Translations under genes and position numbers: made by a program
From: Ignavibacteria bacterium
Lineage (GTDB): Bacteria > Bacteroidota > Ignavibacteria > Kapaibacteriales > Kapaibacteriaceae
Direction: 5' to 3'
DNA length: 64,000 nucleotides
Assembly (NCBI GenBank): GCA_015709655.1
Contig: CP054181.1
Coordinates: 2,166,207-2,230,206 of the forward strand
Notes under the pieces: model-generated
What the model saw: the letters and a program-made list of their open reading frames with translations, nothing else
What the model was told of the DNA's origin: nothing
Databases searched by the model: none
In this document: positions 1-49,431 of the stretch, one piece after another
Layout of the letters: each line of letters begins with the position of its first letter
Numbering within the stretch: the first letter of the stretch is position 1

Positions 1-177
1 ACTCGTACAGGGCGACCACTCGGGGTCGCCCCTACGGTATCATATCGAAAATTACGATGTATCGTGTCGGTGGATGCTAACCGCCCCATACAACGGTTTA
101 TCGATTGATATGTGGACTCGTACAGGGCGACCACGCGGGGTCGCCCCTACGGTATCATATCGAAAATAACGATGTAT
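1..177. repeat. 115-bp hairpin repeat array, left segment
   Basis: About one and a half units of a 115-bp tandem repeat; the word ACTCGTACAGGGCGACCAC recurs at 1 and 116. Each unit has two GC-rich inverted repeats: arms GGGCGACC and GGTCGCCC around a 6-nt loop, and arms GGCGG (or GGTGG) and CCGCC around ATGCTAA. AT-rich stretches with ATCGATTGATATG and ACGATGTATCGT join them. The array continues on the far side of two IS insertions, at 1448-1762 and 3063-3300. No coding function is apparent, because a 115-bp period shifts frame at every unit. Confidence 0.9.
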
Positions 178-245
178 TGGAGTGGTCCTGAAAAAGTGGA
201 CACTACGGAAAAGGTGTAATTTTCCCAAAACCTTAGGAAAGAGCA

Positions 246-536
246 ATGAAACACGCACCACATTTTTATGATGAAACATTTAAACGTCGCGCCCTGGAGA
301 TGGTAGCTGCGGGACGTACGCTGGCCTCGGTGGCCCGTGAGCTTGGCATCGACGTCAAGCGACTATCGTACTGGAAGCGTACGCTTGGAGCTGCAGCAGC
401 TGCCGGACAGAAGACACCTGACGAGCTAGCCGCCGAAGTACGGGCCTTGCGCAGGCGCGCCGAGCGTGCAGAAATGGAGCTGGCTATTTTAAAAAAAGCG
501 ATGTCGATCTTTGCCGCTTCGCCGGGAAGGGACTGA
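246..536 (+). CDS. IS3-family transposase OrfA
   Basis: 96-residue DNA-binding subunit of an IS3-type transposase. The N-terminal half is a helix-turn-helix of the 'TFKRRALEMVAAGRTLASVARELGI' type, followed by a conserved W in the recognition region and a C-terminal leucine-zipper-like coiled coil that ends ELAILKKA. A run of seven A (491-497) near the 3' end is a typical slippery site: a -1 shift there enters the orfB frame, which stays open from 491, and would give the full OrfAB transposase. The ATG lies 64 bp inside the left end with GAAAGAGCA upstream. Confidence 0.92.
   Translation: MKHAPHFYDETFKRRALEMVAAGRTLASVARELGIDVKRLSYWKRTLGAAAAAGQKTPDELAAEVRALRRRAERAEMELAILKKAMSIFAASPGRD
491..497 (+). 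other. putative programmed -1 frameshift site (A7)
   Basis: Seven consecutive A precede GCG in the orfA-orfB overlap. The orfB frame is -1 relative to orfA and has no stop between this site and the orfB ATG at 542, as expected for IS3-family OrfAB fusion by slippage. Copy 2 of the IS has five A here, which joins the two frames in the DNA itself. Confidence 0.7.
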
Positions 537-541
537 AATAC

Positions 542-1420
542 ATGTTTATCAAAAACCATCAGCACTGTTGGCCGGTGCGCCTGCAGTGTCATGTGCTGCA
601 GGTGAGTGCCAGCGGCTACTATGCCTGGTTGAAGCGCCCCGAACCTCGGCACAGTGCCGATGAGCGTGAGCTAGTGCTTGCCATACGCACGATTGATGAG
701 AACTCCAGGCATACAATCGGCAGCCGCCGGATGATCGAGGAACTCCACCGACGCAATCTCGTGGCTGGCCGCCACAAAGTACGCCGGCTGATGCGGGAAG
801 ACGGCATCCGTGTCAAGCGCACGCCCAGGCGCGCATCCGTGCAGACCACCGATTCGCAGCATCAGCACCCGGTGGCCGAAAACCGGCTCAAGCGCAACTT
901 TACCGTCACGGCACCGAACACCGTCTGGGCAGCCGACATCACCTATGTGCCGACCAACGGTGGCTATGTGTACTTGGCGGTGGTGATGGATTTGTTCTCG
1001 CGTCGCATCATTGGCTGGCATCTGTCAGAGACGATCACGCAACAGCTCACCATCACGGCACTCTGGAAGGCCTGGAAGAACCGTTCTTATGCCACCGGCA
1101 TGCTCATTCATAGTGATCGCGGTTCGCAGTATGCTGCCGCTGGCTACCGCCAGTTTCTGACTGACTACTGCAAAGCAACGCAGAGCATGAGCCGCAAGGG
1201 AAACTGCTGGGACAACGCACCAGTAGAATCCTTTTTTGCCACGCTCAAGACCGAAGAATTCAACGACATCAACTTCGTTGATCTCGAGCACCTAAAGCGT
1301 CAGGCAGCACACTACATCGAGAACATCTATAATCGCAGACGACTGCATTCAACACTTGGATATACAACCCCCGTTGACTTTGAAAACAACTACTTTCGTA
1401 ATCAAAAACACCTACACTAA
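542..1420 (+). CDS. IS3-family transposase OrfB (DDE integrase domain)
   Basis: 292-residue catalytic subunit. An N-terminal HTH_21-like segment (VLAIRTIDENSRHTIGSRR..) precedes an rve integrase core. Catalytic acidic residues are visible in context: D in 'WAADITYVPT', D in 'HSDRGSQY' and E in 'NAPVESFFATLK'. The C-terminal NRRRLHSTLGYTTPVDFE block is typical of the family. It starts 5 nt after the orfA stop but is probably made mainly as OrfAB by -1 frameshifting. It is intact, so this copy could be active. Confidence 0.95.
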   Translation: MFIKNHQHCWPVRLQCHVLQVSASGYYAWLKRPEPRHSADERELVLAIRTIDENSRHTIGSRRMIEELHRRNLVAGRHKVRRLMREDGIRVKRTPRRASVQTTDSQHQHPVAENRLKRNFTVTAPNTVWAADITYVPTNGGYVYLAVVMDLFSRRIIGWHLSETITQQLTITALWKAWKNRSYATGMLIHSDRGSQYAAAGYRQFLTDYCKATQSMSRKGNCWDNAPVESFFATLKTEEFNDINFVDLEHLKRQAAHYIENIYNRRRLHSTLGYTTPVDFENNYFRNQKHLH

Positions 1421-1447
1421 TGTGTCCATTTTTGTAGGACCACACCA

Positions 1448-1762
1448 GTATCGTATTGGCGGATGCTAACCGCCCCCTACAACGGTTTATCGATTGATAT
1501 GTGGACTCGTACAGGGCGACCACGCGGGGTCGCCCCTACGGTATCATATCGAAAATAACGATGTATCGTATTGGCGGATGCTAACCGCCCCCTACAACGA
1601 ATTATCGATTGATATGTGGATTCGTACCGGGCGACCACACGGTGTCGCCCCTACAGCATCATATCGAACATCATGATGTTTCGTGGAGGGCGGATGTCAT
1701 CCGCCCCCTACAACGGTTTATCGATTGGTATGCCGATTCGTACCGGGCGACCACACGGTGTC
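1448..1762. repeat. 115-bp hairpin repeat array, middle segment
   Basis: Continuation of the array from 1-177 after the first IS, about 2.7 units. It contains both unit subtypes: GGCGGATGCTAACCGCC (5-bp stem) and GGGCGGATGTCATCCGCCC (9-bp stem). The segment ends at the GTC target duplication of the second IS. No gene is apparent. Confidence 0.88.
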
Positions 1763-1830
1763 TGAACCCGGCCTGAATTGAGGTACAGAAAGATAAACTG
1801 TATTTTTCAATTCAAGAAAGGAGAACCGCA

Positions 1831-2142
1831 ATGGCAGGTAAACGTACACGGCAGCCAATAGAGGCTCAGTTTAGAGCTGAAGCGCTGCGTCTAGTAAGGG
1901 ACCATCCCGAGCGTCAGAAGTCCAGTATCGCCCGTGACCTTGGCATCGATGCTAAAACGCTGTATGCTTGGATACAGGCAGATAAGAAGAGCAAATCATC
2001 ACAGCCAGATGCTTTGGAAGCGAGCGCCGAGGAAAACGCCCGACTGCGTCGTGAATTGAAGGTGGTGACTCAGGAGCGCGACATCCTAAAAATGCCATCG
2101 GTATCTTCTCTCAACGGCCGAGATGAGATACGACTTCATTGA
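1831..2142 (+). CDS. IS3-family transposase OrfA (altered C-terminus)
   Basis: 103-residue helix-turn-helix protein with 'AQFRAEALRLVRDHPER..SSIARDLGIDAKTLYAWI', then a coiled coil 'ENARLRRELKVVTQERDILK'. The family normally continues ILKKA-I-FSQ; here the A run after ILK is only five long, so the reading switches to an unrelated tail (MPSVSSLNGRDEIRLH). The A run has therefore probably lost bases, or has been under-called, at the frameshift window. A good ribosome site (AAGGAGA) lies 7 nt upstream of the ATG. Confidence 0.85.
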   Translation: MAGKRTRQPIEAQFRAEALRLVRDHPERQKSSIARDLGIDAKTLYAWIQADKKSKSSQPDALEASAEENARLRRELKVVTQERDILKMPSVSSLNGRDEIRLH

Positions 2143-3032
2143 GCGTCATCGCTCGAAACGTGGCCGTTAGACGTGATGTGTCGAGTCTTGCAAGCTTCCG
2201 TGATGGCTACTATCAGTGGCGCAAGGGTGTTGAGGGAAGCGCAAGCAAGAAGATCGCGAACTGCTTGCTCAGATCAATGAGATCTATCAGGCAACGGAGA
2301 GGAGCTATGGTGCTGAGTGGATCGCTCATGATATCAGGAAAGGCGGGAGACGTGTCGGAAGAGACTCGGGTTCGTCGGCTCATGAAGCAAAACGGTATGC
2401 CTGTTCAATGCAAGAACACATGGAAATGCATGGCAACGACGAATCTATCGGAGACGTATCACCCCTCATCGGATCTCGTGCAGCGCGCGTTCCACAGGAC
2501 TGAACTGGACGAACTGTGGCTGAGCGACTATTCTGAGCTTCCGGCGATCGGTCCAAAGATCTACGCCGTGGCGATCAAGGATCAAGCATCGCACCGCATT
2601 CTTGGTATCCACGTTTCGCATGATTTGCATGTTGGAGCGTTGTTCAAAGCATTCCATCAAGCCGTGATCGCGCGTCGGCTGAAGCACAGGACATTAGAGC
2701 TGCGCCATCATCTTCCACTCCGACCAAGGAGGGCAGGTACAACTCATATGCATTCAAAGATGAGCTCAAGAAGTACGGCCTCGTTAGTAGCATGGGCTCA
2801 TCAGGCGACTGCTATGACAATGCTCCGATGGAATCGTTTTGGGCCACGATGAAGACCGAGTTGATGCATCACTTTCCATTTCGTAACGTCGAACATGCCG
2901 CAGGTCGCCATCTATCGATGGACACATCTGTTCTACAACCAACGCCGCAGACACACGTCAATCGGTGGACTCTCGCCCGTGCAATTCGAAGTTGATTGGT
3001 ATCAACGCAATCGATCAGTATGTTGTACTTAA
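2123..3032 (+). pseudogene. IS3-family transposase OrfB, frameshifted
   Basis: Pieces of one orfB in several frames. They start MRYDFIERHRSK (ATG 2123), then GYYQWRKG, then the core 'DELWLSDYSELPA..YAVAIKDQASHRILGIH' (about 2460-2660), then 'SSGDCYDNAPMESFWATMKTEL' (about 2790-2860, containing the catalytic E) and 'QFEVDWYQRNRSVCCT' ending at 3032. At least four frame changes are needed to read the whole domain. The transposase is not functional as written, although homopolymer miscalls could account for some breaks. Confidence 0.85.
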
Positions 3033-3062
3033 ACTTTCGTACCTCGAATTAGGCCGGGATCA

Positions 3063-3300
3063 GTCGCCCCTACAGCATCATATCGAACATCATGATGTTT
3101 CGTGGAGGGCGGATGTCATCCGCCCCCTACAACGATTTATCGTTTGGTATGCGGACTCGTACCGGGCGACCACACGGGGTCGCCCCTACGGCATCATATC
3201 GAACATCATGATGTTTCGTGGAGGGCGGATGTCATCCGCCCCCTACAACGATTTATCGATTGATATGTGGATTCGTACCGGGCGACCATGCGGGTCAGGC
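3063..3300. repeat. 115-bp hairpin repeat array, right segment
   Basis: About two units continuing the array after the second IS, mainly of the GGGCGGATGTCATCCGCCC subtype with 'ATGATGTTTCGTGGAGGGCGG'. The last unit degenerates at 'GCGACCATGCGGGTCAGGC', where the R2 element begins. Confidence 0.85.
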
Positions 3301-3545
3301 GCCACGGTTTCACATCCACATTGCGGTCAAACACAACCCTCTTGCACGACCGAACTGCGCCATAAATCCCGAGCGGACGGACTACGGCCCTTCGGGCCCC
3401 ACCCCCACCTCCGCCACCATCGTGCCTCACCACCTACCTACACAGCTCAACCGGTCGGCTGCGTTGCGCAGCCTACATTAAAACCTGAGAAATTCCGGAG
3501 CAATTGCTTTTGTAGTAAAGTAGGAGTATCAAAGAAAATGTGACG
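3301..3545. repeat. dispersed element R2, copy 1
   Basis: About 240 bp, from GCCACGGTTTCACATCCAC to GAAAATGTGACG. Internal perfect hairpins are GGCTGCG-TTG-CGCAGCC and GGCCC-TTC-GGGCC. Near-identical copies lie at 11321-11540 and 13343-13585, with diverged inverted copies at 44595-44758 and 47507-47700. No long ORF is conserved between copies. It resembles a non-autonomous mobile element or a structured RNA, but the class is unknown to me. Confidence 0.85.
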
Positions 3546-8522: not shown

Positions 8523-9830
8523 ATGAAAAAAGAACTCTTCGTGGCAGCGTTTTGTTTGATGTGTTGGGCAACACCACTGTTGGCCCAATACACAGTACTA
8601 GTTGGATACGACGAGCATCAGAACAGGCAAGCTGTAAAGCAATGCATATTTACCTCTGCTGATACGGTCTTTCTTGTACAGAATGGTGTATATCGCTCAC
8701 TTGATAGTGGAAGGACGTGGTCGCAGGTGGCTAATGGATCGAATACCCCGACTGAGTGGCTGGTGATGTTCGATGGACACCAAGGTATTTACATGTCAAG
8801 CCAGTCACTAAAAAAGACAACAAACGGTGGTAACAACTGGGAGATAATTCTAAAGCCAAGTTATCCCGATGATTCAGGTTTTGTTGCTCTTGGATACGAA
8901 CAGGATGCAAAACTACTCGTGTTGGAAACCTTTGTACATCATCAATCAAGTAATGAAGGAAGAACCTGGAATTCGGACACCGTCCAACCGGGTGGCCCTA
9001 TTGTTTCACAGGTGAACGGCTGCAACATGCAGGGGTCTTGGTTTGGCCTTTTGTTTATACAGGGTGTCTTTGCTGTGTATGAAACGGTGCGCGTTGCAGG
9101 TAATGGTAATGATGTAAAGAATCTTCGTTTCGGTGATTGGAATTTATCCAAAGGCAAGGCCTTCTACGCCAACCTCATTCATGCTATAGACACATCCACC
9201 GTTTGGGTTGCCGGCTCGTATGTGCGCTCACGCACAGATTCGGCATTATGGAACAAGCGGTTGGTTTATACCACCAATGCCGGTACTACGTGGCAGCATG
9301 CTAACTATGATTTTCCCTCGGCTATCACGTGCATCGAGTTCATCACACCGCAACTTGGATTTGTTGGTGACACTACGGGTAATGTATTCGTAACGACCGA
9401 TGGCGGTCAGACCTGGAACAACGACAATGCCCCCTCCGGCGGGAAGCCAATTCTCTCTATAAGCAATGTACTTGGCAAGTACCTGCACATTGTTGGTAGG
9501 GGAGTTGTTTTGCGTAGGGGGCTTTCGGTAACGGACATACAAGAAACAGTGCCACCGGCCGCACGGGCTCCGCTTACCTCGGTCTCTATCCGTCCCAACC
9601 CGGCTCATGCCACAGCCCTGTTAGATATCATAACAAACGGTGAAGTAGTGGTGGATATCGAAGTCTATAACGTAGTAGGCTCACGTGCAATTCTGCAGCT
9701 CGGCGGTGTGCAAGTAGCAAGTGGAGCATCGGCAATACCGTTAGATGTTACCATATTAACAACGGGAATGTACCTGTGCCTTGTACGAACCCCCAAAAGC
9801 GTATCCACATGCTACTTCATGGTGGAATGA
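8523..9830 (+). CDS. Asp-box beta-propeller protein, T9SS-sorted
   Basis: 435 residues starting 3 nt after the peptidase gene. It has an N-terminal signal peptide (MKKELFVAAFCLMCWATPLLAQ) and at least four Asp-box/YCF48-like motifs (YRSLDSGRTWSQV, KKTTNGGNNWEI, YTTNAGTTWQHA, FVTTDGGQTWNN), which predict a beta-propeller. It ends in a T9SS sorting domain, 'SIRPNPAHATALLDI..GMYLCLVRTP..CYFMVE'. No catalytic function can be assigned. Most of this gene (from 8653) plus 158 bp downstream is duplicated in tandem at 9989-11320. Confidence 0.88.
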   Translation: MKKELFVAAFCLMCWATPLLAQYTVLVGYDEHQNRQAVKQCIFTSADTVFLVQNGVYRSLDSGRTWSQVANGSNTPTEWLVMFDGHQGIYMSSQSLKKTTNGGNNWEIILKPSYPDDSGFVALGYEQDAKLLVLETFVHHQSSNEGRTWNSDTVQPGGPIVSQVNGCNMQGSWFGLLFIQGVFAVYETVRVAGNGNDVKNLRFGDWNLSKGKAFYANLIHAIDTSTVWVAGSYVRSRTDSALWNKRLVYTTNAGTTWQHANYDFPSAITCIEFITPQLGFVGDTTGNVFVTTDGGQTWNNDNAPSGGKPILSISNVLGKYLHIVGRGVVLRRGLSVTDIQETVPPAARAPLTSVSIRPNPAHATALLDIITNGEVVVDIEVYNVVGSRAILQLGGVQVASGASAIPLDVTILTTGMYLCLVRTPKSVSTCYFMVE

Positions 9831-9891
9831 GCAATGTATCCTCTCCTCAAGCCTTGCGCAAATTCTGACCGATTCCTGCAGTGTTCGTGAC

Positions 9892-9976
9892 AGGGAGTTG
9901 GAGTGCACGGCCTCGTGTCAAATGTTCATGACGTACCCATATGGGCGACCATGAAGGGTAGCCATAACGAATTCAT
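9892..9976. repeat. R3 element, copy 1
   Basis: About 85 bp with GGAGT..GCACGGCC..TGTC.AATGTTC.TGA.GTACCC..TGGG, ending near AGCCAT. It is repeated identically at 11224-11308 as part of the tandem duplication, and in diverged form at 13613-13698 immediately before the long hairpin array. Confidence 0.6.
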
Positions 9977-9988
9977 ATGCATTCTTAA

Positions 9989-11160
9989 CCTCTGCTGATA
10001 CGGTCTTTCTTGTACAGAATGGTGTATATCGCTCACTTGATAGTGGAAGGACGTGGTCGCAGGTGGCTAATGGATCGAATACCCCGACTGAGTGGCTGGT
10101 GATGTTCGATGGACACCAAGGTATTTACATGTCAAGCCAGTCACTAAAAAGACAACAAACGGTGGTAACAACTGGGAGATAATTCTAAAGCCAAGTTATC
10201 CCGATGATTCAGGTTTTGTTGCTCTTGGATACGAACAGGATGCAAAACTACTCGTGTTGGAAACCTTTGTACATCATCAATCAAGTAATGAAGGAAGAAC
10301 CTGGAATTCGGACACCGTCCAACCGGGTGGCCCTATTGTTTCACAGGTGAACGGCTGCAACATGCAGGGGTCTTGGTTTGGCCTTTTGTTTATACAGGGT
10401 GTCTTTGCTGTGTATGAAACGGTGCGCGTTGCAGGTAATGGTAATGATGTAAAGAATCTTCGTTTCGGTGATTGAATTTATCCAAAGGCAAGGCCTTCTA
10501 CGCCAACCTCATTCATGCTATAGACACATCCACCGTTTGGGTTGCCGGCTCGTATGTGCGCTCACGCACAGATTCGGCATTATGGAACAAGCGGTTGGTT
10601 TATACCACCAATGCCGGTACTACGTGGCAGCATGCTAACTATGATTTTCCCTCGGCTATCACGTGCATCGAGTTCATCACACCGCAACTTGGATTTGTTG
10701 GTGACACTACGGGTAATGTATTCGTAACGACCGATGGCGGTCAGACCTGGAACAACGACAATGCCCCTCCGGCGGGAAGCCAATTCTCTCTATAAGCAAT
10801 GTACTTGGCAAGTACCTGCACATTGTTGGTAGGGGAGTTGTTTTGCGTAGGGGCTTTCGGTAACGGACATACAAGAAAACAGTGCCACCGGCCGCACGGG
10901 CTCCGCTTACCTCGGTCTCTATCCGTCCCAACCCGGCTCATGCCACAGCCCTGTTAGATATCATAACAAACGGTGAAGTAGTGGTGGATATCGAAGTCTA
11001 TAACGTAGTAGGCTCACGTGCAATTCTGCAGCTCGGCGGTGTGCAAGTAGCAAGTGGAGCATCGGCAATACCGTTAGATGTTACCATATTAACAACGGAA
11101 TGTACCTGTGCCTTGTACGAACCCCCAAAAGCGTATCCACATGCTACTTCATGGTGGAAT
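9989..11160 (+). pseudogene. duplicated, frame-broken copy of the Asp-box T9SS gene
   Basis: Lacks the first 43 codons (start and signal peptide) of the parent gene and has six single-base indels that split it into frames around 10092-10475, 10472-10795 and 10882-11160. All other bases match the parent at 8653-9830. The sorting domain is still recognisable (SIRPNPAHATALLDI). It cannot be secreted as written. The indel pattern fits either very recent decay or homopolymer sequencing errors. Confidence 0.9.
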
Positions 11161-11223
11161 GAGCAATGTATCCTCTCCTCAAGCCTTGCGCAAATTCTGA
11201 CCGATTCCTGCAGTGTTCGTGAC

Positions 11224-11308
11224 AGGGAGTTGGAGTGCACGGCCTCGTGTCAAATGTTCATGACGTACCCATATGGGCGACCATGAAGGGTAGCCATAAC
11301 GAATTCAT
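11224..11308. repeat. R3 element, copy 2
   Basis: Copy of the 9892-9976 segment carried by the tandem duplication. It ends in GAATTCATATGCATTCTTAA, where R2 copy 2 begins abruptly. Confidence 0.6.
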
Positions 11309-11320
11309 ATGCATTCTTAA

Positions 11321-11540
11321 GGTCAAACACAACCCTCTTGCACGACCGAACTGCGCCATAAATCCCGAGCGGACGGACTACGGCCCTTCGGGCCCCACCC
11401 CCACCTCCGCCACCATCGTGCATCACCACCTACCTACACAGCTCAACCGGTCGGCTGCGTTGCGCAGCCTACATTAAAGTCTGAGAAATTCCGGAGCAAT
11501 TGCTGTAGTAGTAAAGTAGGAGTATCATAGAAAATGTGAC
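11321..11540. repeat. dispersed element R2, copy 2
   Basis: Begins at GGTCAAACACAACCC, so it lacks the first ~20 bp of copy 1, and runs to GAAAATGTGACG. It has the same two hairpins (GGCTGCG-TTG-CGCAGCC and GGCCC-TTC-GGGCC) and, like copy 1, is followed by the IS3-type remnant. Confidence 0.85.
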
Positions 11541-11820
11541 GTATCACCTTTTTAGCCCCCTAAATAGCTGGAGTAGGCTCCTAATTGTAATTTCACACAA
11601 GCAAGGAGTAACAAATGGGACAGAAGTAAGGAATTGAAACTGACGATCCTGGAAGAAGCAGGGCAATACGGGATAGCACAGACAAGCTGTAAACGCGGTA
11701 TTGCAGCAAATCAGATGTATAACTGAAAGAAGAAATACCTGTGATTGGGAGAAGCAGGGGTGTCGGGCACAGTGCGCAAAGGAAGATCCGGAGAAACACC
11801 TCTTGCGGACAGACAGTAGT
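11541..11820 (+). pseudogene. IS3-type OrfA remnant, second copy
   Basis: Matches 3546-3830: the same leader, ATG after AAGGAG (11614), 'KLTILEEAGQYGIAQTS', the same two in-frame TGA codons and 'LGEAGVSGT'. It carries an additional early deletion and stop (GGGACAGAAGTAAGG) and loses similarity after the 'GTVRK' region, so it is truncated. It co-occurs with R2 as at 3301-4600, so the two segments were copied together. Confidence 0.75.
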
Positions 11821-12407: not shown

Positions 12408-12962
12408 ATGTATATGGAATTTACGATGTCAATAACTCCAAACTTCATTTATTGGGGCCTCTATATTGTTGCATGGCTCATTTTTATTGGACTGTCTGTA
12501 GAAGCAGGAGGCTTGGTAGTCAACTTCTTTTTCAGTCTGTACGAACCCAGTGCTATCCAGAATCTGTATCAAAAGCTGGACTTATCCGAAATGTTTGCAC
12601 AGAGCAAGCTGACGTTTTTTGGTGTGTACGGCTTTATTCTGATTATATCGGTCCTCAAAGCCGTTTTATTCTACATTGTGATTAGGATGATGCACAAAAT
12701 GGAATTATCAAAGCCGTTCAACAGCTTTGTTTCAAGACAGATTTTGCAGATTAGCTACTGTACCATATCAATTGGACTTCTAAGTTATATCGCCAGACGG
12801 CTAACCAATTCTTTGCTTCATTATGGTTTTGTGCCCGACAACTTACACCAGTTTTGGGTGGATAGTCAGGCGTTTATTCTGATGGGTGCAGTTGTATATA
12901 TCATCGCAACGATATTCAAAAAAGGTGTCGATCTCCAAAACGAAAACGATTTAACTGTGTAA
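12408..12962 (+). CDS. DUF2975-family membrane protein
   Basis: 184 residues with four predicted membrane helices (about 12-35, 65-95, 118-140 and 150-170), ending in a short polar tail. The layout and the partner gene match DUF2975 proteins, which are usually encoded directly upstream of a small YozG-like HTH regulator; that partner follows 3 nt downstream here. Molecular function is unknown for the family. The pair sits alone between repeat-rich zones, with R2 and the hairpin array downstream, suggesting accessory cargo. Confidence 0.8.
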   Translation: MYMEFTMSITPNFIYWGLYIVAWLIFIGLSVEAGGLVVNFFFSLYEPSAIQNLYQKLDLSEMFAQSKLTFFGVYGFILIISVLKAVLFYIVIRMMHKMELSKPFNSFVSRQILQISYCTISIGLLSYIARRLTNSLLHYGFVPDNLHQFWVDSQAFILMGAVVYIIATIFKKGVDLQNENDLTV

Positions 12963-13232: not shown

Positions 13233-13342
13233 ACCTTGAAGCAGACCAGTCTTGCGCTCCATCTTGGGTACGACCGTGGTAATGGTGTACACACCCGATT
13301 GTCGTGACCTACCCATGTGGACGACCACACGGGGCCGCCGCC

Positions 13343-13585
13343 ACGGTTTCACATCCACATTGCGGTAAAACACAACCCTCTTGCACAACCGAACTGCGCC
13401 ATAAATCCCGAGCGGACGGACTACGGCCCTTCGGGCCCCACCCCCACCTCCGCCACCATCGTGCCTCACCACCTACCTACACAGCTCAACCGGTCGGCTG
13501 CGTTGCGCAGCCTACATTAAAGTCTGAGAAATTCCGGAGCAATTGCTTTTGTAGTAAAGTAGGAGTATCATAGAAAATGTGACGC
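13343..13585. repeat. dispersed element R2, copy 3
   Basis: Full-length copy from GCCACGGTTTCACATCCAC to AAAATGTGACG, nearly identical to copy 1. It is preceded by a diverged hairpin-repeat fragment (ACGACCACACGGGGCCGCC) and followed by R3 and the long hairpin array rather than by an IS remnant. Confidence 0.85.
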
Positions 13586-13612: not shown

Positions 13613-13698
13613 AGGAGGTAGGAGCGCACGGCCATGTGTCTAATGTTCGTGATGTACCCGTGTGGATTAACATGCAGGGCAGCCATATGGTTTCATAT
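13613..13698. repeat. R3 element, diverged copy
   Basis: GGTAGGAGCGCACGGCCATG, then TGTCTAATGTTCGTGATG and TACCCGTGTGG, aligning with 9892-9976 at roughly four bases in five. It leads straight into the first unit of the 13700-14955 array. Confidence 0.55.
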
Positions 13699-13699
13699 C

Positions 13700-14955
13700 G
13701 AAAATCATGATGTATCGTGTCGGTGGATGCTAACCGCCCCATACAACGGTTTATCGATTGATATGCGGATTCGTACCGGGCGACCACGCGGGGTCGCCCC
13801 TACAGAATTATCGTTTACCCTGTTGTTTCGCGAGGGCGGATGCTAACCGCCCCCTACAACGAATTATCGATTGATATGTGGATTCGTACAGGGCGACCAC
13901 GCGGGGTCGCTCCTACGGTATCATATCGATAATTACGATGTATCGTATTGGTGGATGCTAACCGCCCCATACAACGGTTTATCGATTGATATGCGGATTC
14001 GTACCGGGCGACCACGCGGGGTCGCCCCTACGATATCATATCGAAAATTACGATGTATCGTGTCGGCGGATGCTAACCGCCCCCTACAACGGTTTACCGA
14101 TTGATATGTGGATTCGTACCGGGCGACCACGCGGGGTCGCTCCTACAGCATCATATCGAAAATCATGATGTATCGTGTCGGTGGATGCTAACCGCCCCAT
14201 ACAACGGTTTATCGATTGATATGTGGACTCGTACAGGGCGACCACGCGGGGTCGCCCCTACGGTATCATATCGAAAATAACGATGTATCGTATTGGCGGA
14301 TGCTAACCGCCCCCTACAACGGTTTATCGATTGATATGTGGACTCGTACCGGGCGACCACGCGGGGTCGCCCCTACGATATCATATCGAAAATTACGATA
14401 TATCGTGTCGGTGGATGCTAACTGCCCCCTACAATGGTTTGTCGTTTGGTATGCGGACTCGTACCGGGCGACCACACGGGTCGCCCCTACAGCATCATAT
14501 CGAAAATCATGATGTTTCGTGGAGGGCGGATGTCATCCGCCCCTACAATGATTTATCGATTGGTATGCGTAATTGTACAGGACGACCACACGGGGTCGCC
14601 CCTCCGGTATCATATCGAAAATTACGATGTATCGTGTCGGCGGATGCTAACCGCCCCCTACAATGGTTTACCGATTGATATGTGGATTCGTACCGGGCGA
14701 CCACACGGGGTCGCCCCTCCGGTATCATATCGAAAATTACGCTGTATCGTATTGGCGGATGCTAACCGCCCCTACAACGGTTTATCTATTGGTATTTGCA
14801 TTCGTACAAGGCGACCATGCGGGGTCGCGCCTACGGAACTATCGTTTACTCTGTTGTTTCGTGGAGGGCTGATGCTAACCGCCTCTACAACGGTTTATCT
14901 ATTGGTATTCGCATTCGTACAGGGCGACCATGCGGGATCGCCCCTACGGGTTCTC
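13700..14955. repeat. 115-bp hairpin repeat array, about 11 units
   Basis: The GGGCGACC hairpin recurs near 13778, 13891, 14006, 14121, 14236, 14351, 14466, 14580, 14695, 14808 and 14922, a spacing of 113-115 bp. Each unit also has the second hairpin, GGCGGATGCTAACCGCC or, once (about 14526), GGGCGGATGTCATCC. Sequence changes cluster at the ends of the array, where units are more diverged. There are no unique spacers and no shared reading frame, so it is neither a CRISPR array nor a repeat protein. Confidence 0.92.
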
Positions 14956-15298
14956 GCGGTGATAACATTAGGCTCACCCCAACAGAAAAATAATGATGTT
15001 TATGATGTTATGTGCATGTGAGCCCCCTGCCTCCACGGTTGTTCGAATCGGGGTTTACGGGATTACACAATGGTCGGGAAAGTAACTGCCCCGTGGTAGG
15101 GCGCATATATGCAGTGCGAATAGCAAGATGACTCTGCAGGGCCCTCTCGTACCATGCACCTCAACCCCTCTTCCAACATTCAGAGGTTGGGGAGTGTTTG
15201 GGGATAGGGCGATTCCAAATAACTCAAAAAAACCAAGGATTGAAGCAGTACTGACGGCTATCATATTCTCAAAAAATACCATAGGGTATTTTTGTGCC
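14956..15298. other. leader region of the radical SAM gene
   Basis: An open frame extends upstream of the radical SAM gene to 15128, but its first 57 codons look unlike the family (proline-rich, then repeat-like), so I treat this as untranslated leader. It contains CCAAC...GTTGG inverted sequences near 15173-15193. No RNA family is recognised. Confidence 0.4.
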
Positions 15299-16955: not shown

Positions 16956-17020
16956 AAAGTCTCAAAGTCTCAAAGTCTCAAAGTCTCAAAGTCTCAAAAT
17001 CTCAAAGTCTCAAAATCTCA
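16956..17020. repeat. 8-bp tandem repeat (TCTCAAAG)n
   Basis: About eight copies of TCTCAAAG/TCTCAAAA in a row, 40 nt after the radical SAM stop. It looks like a simple-sequence slippage tract; no role is evident. Confidence 0.9.
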
Positions 17021-44594: not shown

Positions 44595-44758
44595 GGGGTC
44601 ACACATCCCTCTTCGCCTCCCACTAAACATCAAAGCAAATGCTGTGGAATCCCTAATGACGTTTTATGTAGGCTGTGCAACGCAGCCGACCGGCCTGGTT
44701 GTATTGGTATGTGGTGAAGCACGGTGGGGAGCGGCGGTGGGGTTCAATTTGTGACCCC
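44595..44758 (-). repeat. dispersed element R2, short diverged inverted copy
   Basis: 164 bp bounded by a perfect 9-bp terminal inverted repeat (GGGGTCACA at 44595-44603, TGTGACCCC at 44750-44758). The interior aligns in reverse with R2 (GTAGGCTGTGCAACGCAGCC, then ACCGGCC, then GTGGTGAAGCACGGTGG) but lacks the GGGCCCGAAGGGCC hairpin. The terminal repeats give it a MITE-like appearance. Confidence 0.75.
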
Positions 44759-47506: not shown

Positions 47507-47700
47507 GGCAACGTCACATTTCCCTATCACTCTCCCACTATACCTGAAAGCAATTGCTGTGGAATTCCTAATGGATTTATCGTAGGCTGCGCAACGCAGC
47601 CAACCGGCCGTGCTGTATGTGGTAGGTGGTGAAGCAAGATGGTGGCGGCGGTGGGGGAGGGGCCCGAAGGGCGTAAACTGTCCGCTTGGAAATTTGCCGA
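47507..47700 (-). repeat. dispersed element R2, diverged inverted copy
   Basis: Runs in reverse from ACGTCACATTTCCC through AGCAATTGCTGTGGAATT, the hairpin GGCTGCG-CAA-CGCAGCC and GTGGTGAAGCAAGATGGTGG to the hairpin GGCCC-GAA-GGGC. About 80% like copy 1. It lies just left of IS3 copy 2. Confidence 0.8.
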
Positions 47701-47783
47701 GGTTAGGCAGTGCAGAACGGGTGCGCGGGATGAGGTATGGTGGACGGAGTGCGGGGTGGTGTGGTCCTACAAAAATGGACACA

Positions 47784-49282: not shown

Positions 49283-49431
49283 CCCCTCCCCAAACGCGCT
49301 TGCGCGTTTGGGGAGGGGCCGGGGGGTGGGGGCGCTTGCGCGTTTGGGGAGGGGGCCGGGGGGTGGGGGCGCTTGCGCGTTTGGGGAGGGGGCCGGGGGG
49401 TGGGGGCGCTTGCGCGTTTGGGGGGGGCGGA
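49283..49431. repeat. G-rich 37-bp tandem repeat, four copies
   Basis: The unit is GCGCTTGCGCGTTTGGGG, then AGGGGGCCGGGGGGTGGGG, starting at 49296, 49332, 49369 and 49406 (period 36-37). Each has the palindrome AAACGCGC-TT-GCGCGTTT or its right half, plus runs of 4-6 G that could form quadruplexes. The array ends 50 bp before the AtuA-like gene start, so it may affect that gene's transcription. Confidence 0.9.

Follow-up and report, generated by a model that had tools for sequence, protein, structure and literature searches.

A head-to-tail tandem array of two GTAG-type REP hairpins in an Ignavibacteria genome and its probable link to a REP/RAYT system

The main array and its two hairpins

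The window, i.e., the whole stretch of 64,000 nucleotides analyzed, corresponds to positions 2166207-2230206 of the 2.84-Mb single-contig genome of an Ignavibacteria bacterium. The main tandem array was found on the minus strand at 13689-14949 and consists of 11 units of 113-116 bp. It is intergenic, between a DUF2975 gene (ending at 12962) and a radical-SAM ORF (starting at 15128) that run in the same direction; this intergenic position was checked for the array in the window. TRF reported 13689-14949 with a period of 115, 11.0 copies and 85% matches, and a one-unit HMM placed 11 units at 13690-14947, in agreement with the about eleven units of 115 bp described in an earlier note made from the sequence. 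Together with the window-start array and a set upstream of the window (see next section), the unit has been multiplied about 25 times. Mean unit identity was 0.860, 0.861, and 0.871 at lags 1, 2, and 3, respectively, and a higher-order unit of 345 bp, hinted at by TRF, was rejected because the excess at lag 3 was only marginal. The right end of the array is a GTAG, and the left edge grades into a degenerate unit-like stretch with no clean junction. None of the ORFs crossing the array showed a Pfam match, and a protein-coding reading of the array was dropped on this ground.

On the minus strand, the order within each unit is REP-1, linker A, REP-2 and linker B; both linkers are AT-rich and about 33 bp long, and the two hairpins, spaced by about 60 bp, point the same way (head-to-tail). 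The features reported previously were all present, namely the fixed pair of hairpins, the linkers rich in AT and the second hairpin in its two forms. The REP-1 consensus is GTAGGGGCGACC..GGTCGCCC, found in the unit as GTAGGGGCGACCCCGCGTGGTCGCCC; the copy at 14121-14146 (minus strand; GTAGGAGCGACCCCGCGTGGTCGCCC) shows a stem of about 8 bp and a 6-nt loop behind the GTAG tag. REP-2 follows the minus-strand pattern GTAGGGGGCGG..CCGCC. Its short form, as at 14065-14087 (minus strand; GTAGGGGGCGGTTAGCATCCGCC), has a 5-bp stem and an unpaired core and is without the inner stem of the long form, as at 3107-3130 (minus strand; GTAGGGGGCGGATGACATCCGCCC), where the stem is 8 bp or longer. The long form folds well as DNA (z -4.81) because of its hairpins, and REP-2 is predicted to be weak in many units, often at -2 to -6 kcal/mol. 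The form of REP-2 was proposed to change together with its flank, and the link is indeed strong, with the exception of two units (13804-13916 and 14835-14947) in which the GTTTCG.GAG flank accompanies a short core, GCTAACC.

On the minus strand both hairpins start with GTAG, which was found in most units for REP-1, while REP-2 starts with GTAG or GTAT. GTAG marks one of the two large superfamilies of REPs, in which an unpaired GTAG lies 5′ of a GC-rich hairpin present in many intergenic copies (PMC3733652). Since an unpaired GTAG is located immediately 5′ of a short hairpin in each case, both hairpins are GTAG-type REPs.

The earlier claim that pairing is conserved despite sequence change did not hold inside the array: none of 15 pairs had changed on both sides, all measures equaled those of the shuffles, and the short form of REP-2 has lost its inner stem. 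The variant GGTGG for GGCGG, said to retain pairing through G-U, does exist in several units, always as a one-sided change, and gives a wobble pair on the plus strand only. On the GTAG strand it leaves a C-A mismatch, and the predicted DNA hairpin, at about -5.6 kcal/mol with GGCGG, weakens to between -2 and -4 kcal/mol. A comparison between REP types of different genomes gave another picture. Among 64 distinct types, compiled by hand from pattern matches that did not require inner pairing, 83% of the three inner pairs were Watson-Crick compared to 35% after shuffling (2000 arm shuffles; shuffled maximum 47%). The inner stem thus covaries strongly, with compensatory changes, across REP types of different genomes. 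It is in this comparison of different types across genomes, and only there, that the sequences support selection on the hairpin; covariation should be judged between REP types and not among the copies of one tandem array.

Related arrays and RAYT genes

Related units had previously been noticed at 1-3300 of the window, and the one-unit HMM identified about eight units, whole or partial, within 1-3297 as well as about seven more upstream of the window, showing that this window-start array extends 2 kb further upstream, to about genome position 2164.16 kb. Including its upstream part, it is broken by three IS3-family insertions. The first block (1-177, minus strand) contains one full and two partial units and runs on upstream of the window. 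It is followed by an IS3-family element (178-1443, plus strand) inserted between GATGTAT and CGT of a unit, with rve and HTH_21 domains in ORF 542-1420. A second copy of this element was found upstream of the window (ends at about 4655 and 5925 of L009), in the opposite orientation and at the same GATGTAT site of a different unit. The next block (1447-1762, minus strand) contains two partial units and one full unit, and is followed by a different IS3-like element (1763-3062, plus strand; weak rve match) within one arm of a REP-1 hairpin, flanked by a 3-bp duplication of GTC (GGTGTC..IS..GTCGCC). The last block (3063-3297, minus strand) holds about two units, both with long-form REP-2, and its last REP-1 is truncated where a 245-bp dispersed repeat begins. 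These insertions show that the array serves as a target for IS elements, in line with the known preference of IS elements for REPs (PMC1525189).

Copies outside the array, which the earlier note had suggested looking for, were found elsewhere in the genome. The pattern GTAGGGGCG..CGCCC gave 66 strict matches in 2.84 Mb, compared to one for the reversed control, spread over more than 20 loci, so that the REPs are both multi-copy and dispersed. Many of the matches fall in tandem clusters of other periods, i.e., about 36, 55, and 58 bp at 2791.9-2792.8 kb, about 220-235 bp at 538 kb and at 2431-2433 kb, and about 515 bp at 2433-2435 kb. In classic BIMEs and REPINs, the orientation is inverted. 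Here, strict REPs within 300 bp of each other had the same orientation in 24 of 26 close pairs and the opposite orientation in two, and an inverted REP pair was not found to be the unit. Eight part-units of about 75-87 bp were found elsewhere in the genome. In a comparison with 39 relatives, the whole 115-bp unit was confined to the source genome, and the matches in the relatives were to REP-1 only. Beyond these relatives, GTAGGGGCGACC-N6-GGTCGCCC was present in Chloroflexi, Clostridia, Armatimonadota, Rhodothermales and many other lineages among the matches listed. Searching the literature for the GTAGGGGCG string itself brought up no paper on repeats.

The hairpins had been described as REP-like, with the advice to look for an associated RAYT gene. 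Pfam Y1_Tnp gave no matches in the genome, and the resulting reading that it is devoid of RAYT genes was discarded as an artefact of sensitivity, as NCBIfam NF047646 does find them: REP_Tyr_transpos matches were obtained at three loci. The only intact RAYT ORF (178 aa; 2663.9-2664.5 kb; L178:1932-2468) carries DHFH as its HuH motif together with YITNNP and scores 65.6 bits against the NCBIfam curated cut-off of 80; its stop codon leads directly into GGGCGCACGGCCGTGCGCCCCTAC hairpins. A decayed RAYT (2261.7-2262.2 kb, in L177) contains an internal stop codon and ends in a GTAGGGGCGAAAAATTTTTTGCCCC hairpin that is followed by more copies, and at the third locus (1188.8 kb) the match is weak. Both the intact and the decayed RAYT therefore carry GTAGGGGCG hairpins of the same superfamily at their 3′ end. 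The stems at these two genes are GCACGGCCGTGC and GAAAAATTTTTC, and the REP-1/REP-2 type was not found alongside either of them. The decayed and the intact gene are thus each located beside their own REP type (L177 2180-2960 and L178 1932-2780). The decayed gene also holds an internal degenerate copy of its 3′-end hairpin, and a further copy of the IS3-family element at 178-1443 was detected at the REP cluster behind the intact gene.

In two organisms of other phyla (L070 and L151), the exact REP-1 type was found within or beside RAYT ORFs, and in a third organism with this exact type (L097) only a RAYT fragment adjoins. Of 197 genomes from the class, 106 contained RAYT homologues, and GTAGGGGC hairpins were located around or inside the gene in about a third of the 30 best RAYT loci. 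In a relative from the same family, the RAYT is preceded upstream by six tandem REPs spaced 35-50 bp apart. A RAYT was present in 18 of the 20 genomes that have at least 10 strict REPs compared to 88 of 177 among the others (Fisher p=0.0006), a value that can only be taken as a guide because the genomes are related, from a table tallied by hand. A strong inverted repeat between the HuH and Tyr motifs was detected in 22 of 33 homologues compared to 1 of 33 per control segment. The in-frame palindromes of these homologues (L191-L216) are near-perfect and mostly of the form GTAG..CTAC; in the intact RAYT of the source genome an internal REP was not clear. Such in-frame REPs were considered as a new feature and set aside, since they have already been described for TnpA-REP subclass 2.4 (PMC6006769).

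Known REP systems and the origin of the array

TnpA-REP subclass 2.4, or RAYT group 4, is characterized by YIxNNP and occurs in Bacteroidetes, Cyanobacteria and other phyla; its REPs are canonical long ones with three G-C pairs at the foot of the stem, which flank the transposase gene and also sit in frame between HuH and Y (Quentin et al., 2018; PMC6006769). The RAYT genes described here share the YIxNNP motif, canonical long REPs with this stem foot and, among the homologues, both the flanking and the internal in-frame REPs. The intact RAYT differs in that its HuH motif is DHFH instead of NH[IFV]H and an internal REP is not clear; the assignment to the subclass is putative, by motif and internal-REP habit. 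GTAG REPs have been reported in clusters, where singletons or dimers are tandemly repeated along with flanking DNA, head-to-tail (same-orientation) dimers being called rare in the same survey (Di Nocera, De Gregorio and Rocco, 2013; PMC3733652). Compared to the REPs of that survey, the dimers found here are head-to-tail and built from two types, and the array is a clear case of this rare arrangement. Two alternating hairpins in long regular arrays had been thought less usual, but a precedent exists in the GI-GIII arrays of P. fluorescens SBW25, which alternate two REP types at fixed spacings of 112 and 72 bp (Bertels and Rainey, 2011; PMC3116915). The present array resembles them in being long and regular and in alternating two REP types at a fixed spacing, and differs in REP sequences, the 115-bp period, the distant host and the RAYT group. 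It also resembles BIME-2 of enterobacteria in having REP-containing modules in tandem, except that BIMEs alternate REP orientation while all REPs here are co-oriented. The array is therefore a further example of a known phenomenon and not a new kind of system, in a single contig that combines several array periods with an intact and a decayed RAYT.

Taken together, the array is very probably a head-to-tail cluster of GTAG-type REPs belonging to a REP/RAYT (TnpA-REP) system, in which a dimer has been multiplied in tandem. The GTAG hairpins, their many genomic copies, the RAYT genes with hairpins attached and the stem covariation between types were all observed. According to this explanation, the REPs would spread as non-autonomous substrates of a RAYT that recognizes GTAG and the hairpin in single-stranded DNA; mobilization of these particular REPs by RAYT is suggested by analogy with biochemical work on TnpA-REP proteins, those of E. 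coli among them, which act on single-stranded DNA (PMC8266576). The 115-bp REP-1/REP-2 dimer would then have been multiplied by recombination or replication slippage between REPs, as the near-identity of the direct repeats suggests, perhaps aided by RAYT cleavage. The hairpins may now be mainly passive repeats and landing sites for IS elements. Any cellular role of the array is conjectural, and an effect on mRNA 3′ ends or supercoiling would be putative and secondary. Some points speak against this explanation, i.e., the intact RAYT adjoins a different stem type and scores below the cut-off, REP-2 is weak in many units, and the same-orientation arrangement departs from the inverted one of classic BIMEs and REPINs and is called rare for dimers. 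As the RAYT genes of the genome are without the REP-1/REP-2 type, the array may be left over from a RAYT since lost, or the intact RAYT may act on it in trans.

A variant of this explanation, in which RAYT itself builds the arrays by cleavage at GTAG, e.g., through circular intermediates that reinsert REP-1/REP-2 dimers, is considered unlikely. It would account for the unrelated periods in this genome (about 36, 55-58, 115, 220-235, and 515 bp), all with GTAG hairpins in one orientation, as well as for a tandem REP array in a relative (period 35-46 bp) that is likewise made of GTAG hairpins in one orientation; the GTAG at the right end of the main array would also fit, and a model of REP arrays based on RAYT has already been put forward in the literature. 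However, the left edge shows no clean junction, the sole intact RAYT adjoins another REP type, and homologous recombination fits the data equally well. If RAYT did cut at GTAG and re-join modules, a domesticated transposase would be manufacturing tandem repeats in this clade.

The reading of the array as an RNA element (a 3′ UTR or a non-coding RNA), with hairpins selected to stop transcription or protect mRNA, appears improbable. REPs are often transcribed (PMC3733652), the array lies between genes of the same direction, and GGTGG/CCGCC would pair through G-U in a plus-strand RNA, but that pair is a mismatch on the GTAG strand and two-sided changes are absent within the array. Moreover, whole units folded as RNA no better than shuffled sequences (z -1.00 and -0.86 for the two strands), terminator-like or promoter-like sites were not above shuffled sequences, and no Rfam family was found at the array. 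Plain tandem expansion of arbitrary DNA, with incidental hairpins and no link to mobile elements, would fit the near-identical direct copies, the lack of covariation inside the array and the absence of the whole 115-bp unit from the 39 relatives. This reading is already largely refuted, and seems hardly credible, by the distribution of the hairpins, which occur elsewhere in the genome both singly and in arrays of other periods and in many phyla (among the matches listed), by their attachment to RAYT genes, and by the covariation of the stems between genomes.

Other repeats in the window

The 245-bp dispersed repeat occurs in 38 copies of at least 90 bp in the genome, of which 19 have a strict REP no more than 300 bp away (random mean 0.4), and carries a GTAG hairpin of its own (GTAGGCTGCGCAACGCAGCC). 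One copy (3301-3545) abuts the first array, and another (13340-13584), 98% identical, ends about 100 bp before the main array; other copies in the window are located at 11321-11541, about 44632-44742, and 47512-47714. The repeat is partly in tandem, at a spacing of about 311 or 515 bp. At 8642-11320, a 1.35-kb tandem duplication with 99.3% identity, covering the end of a BNR-repeat/Por-secretion-tail gene, suggests a recent duplication of a gene segment. The Por secretion tail domain in the window, a weak match, would point to a host of the Bacteroidota type. At 16956-17020, AAAGTCTC is repeated eight times in tandem, just downstream of the radical-SAM ORF. Besides, a G-rich unit of 37 bp (GCGCTTGCGCGTTTGGGGAGGGGGCCGGGGGGTGGGG) is repeated about 3.6 times at 49296-49427, and this unit resembles a segment of longer REP-array units elsewhere in the genome.
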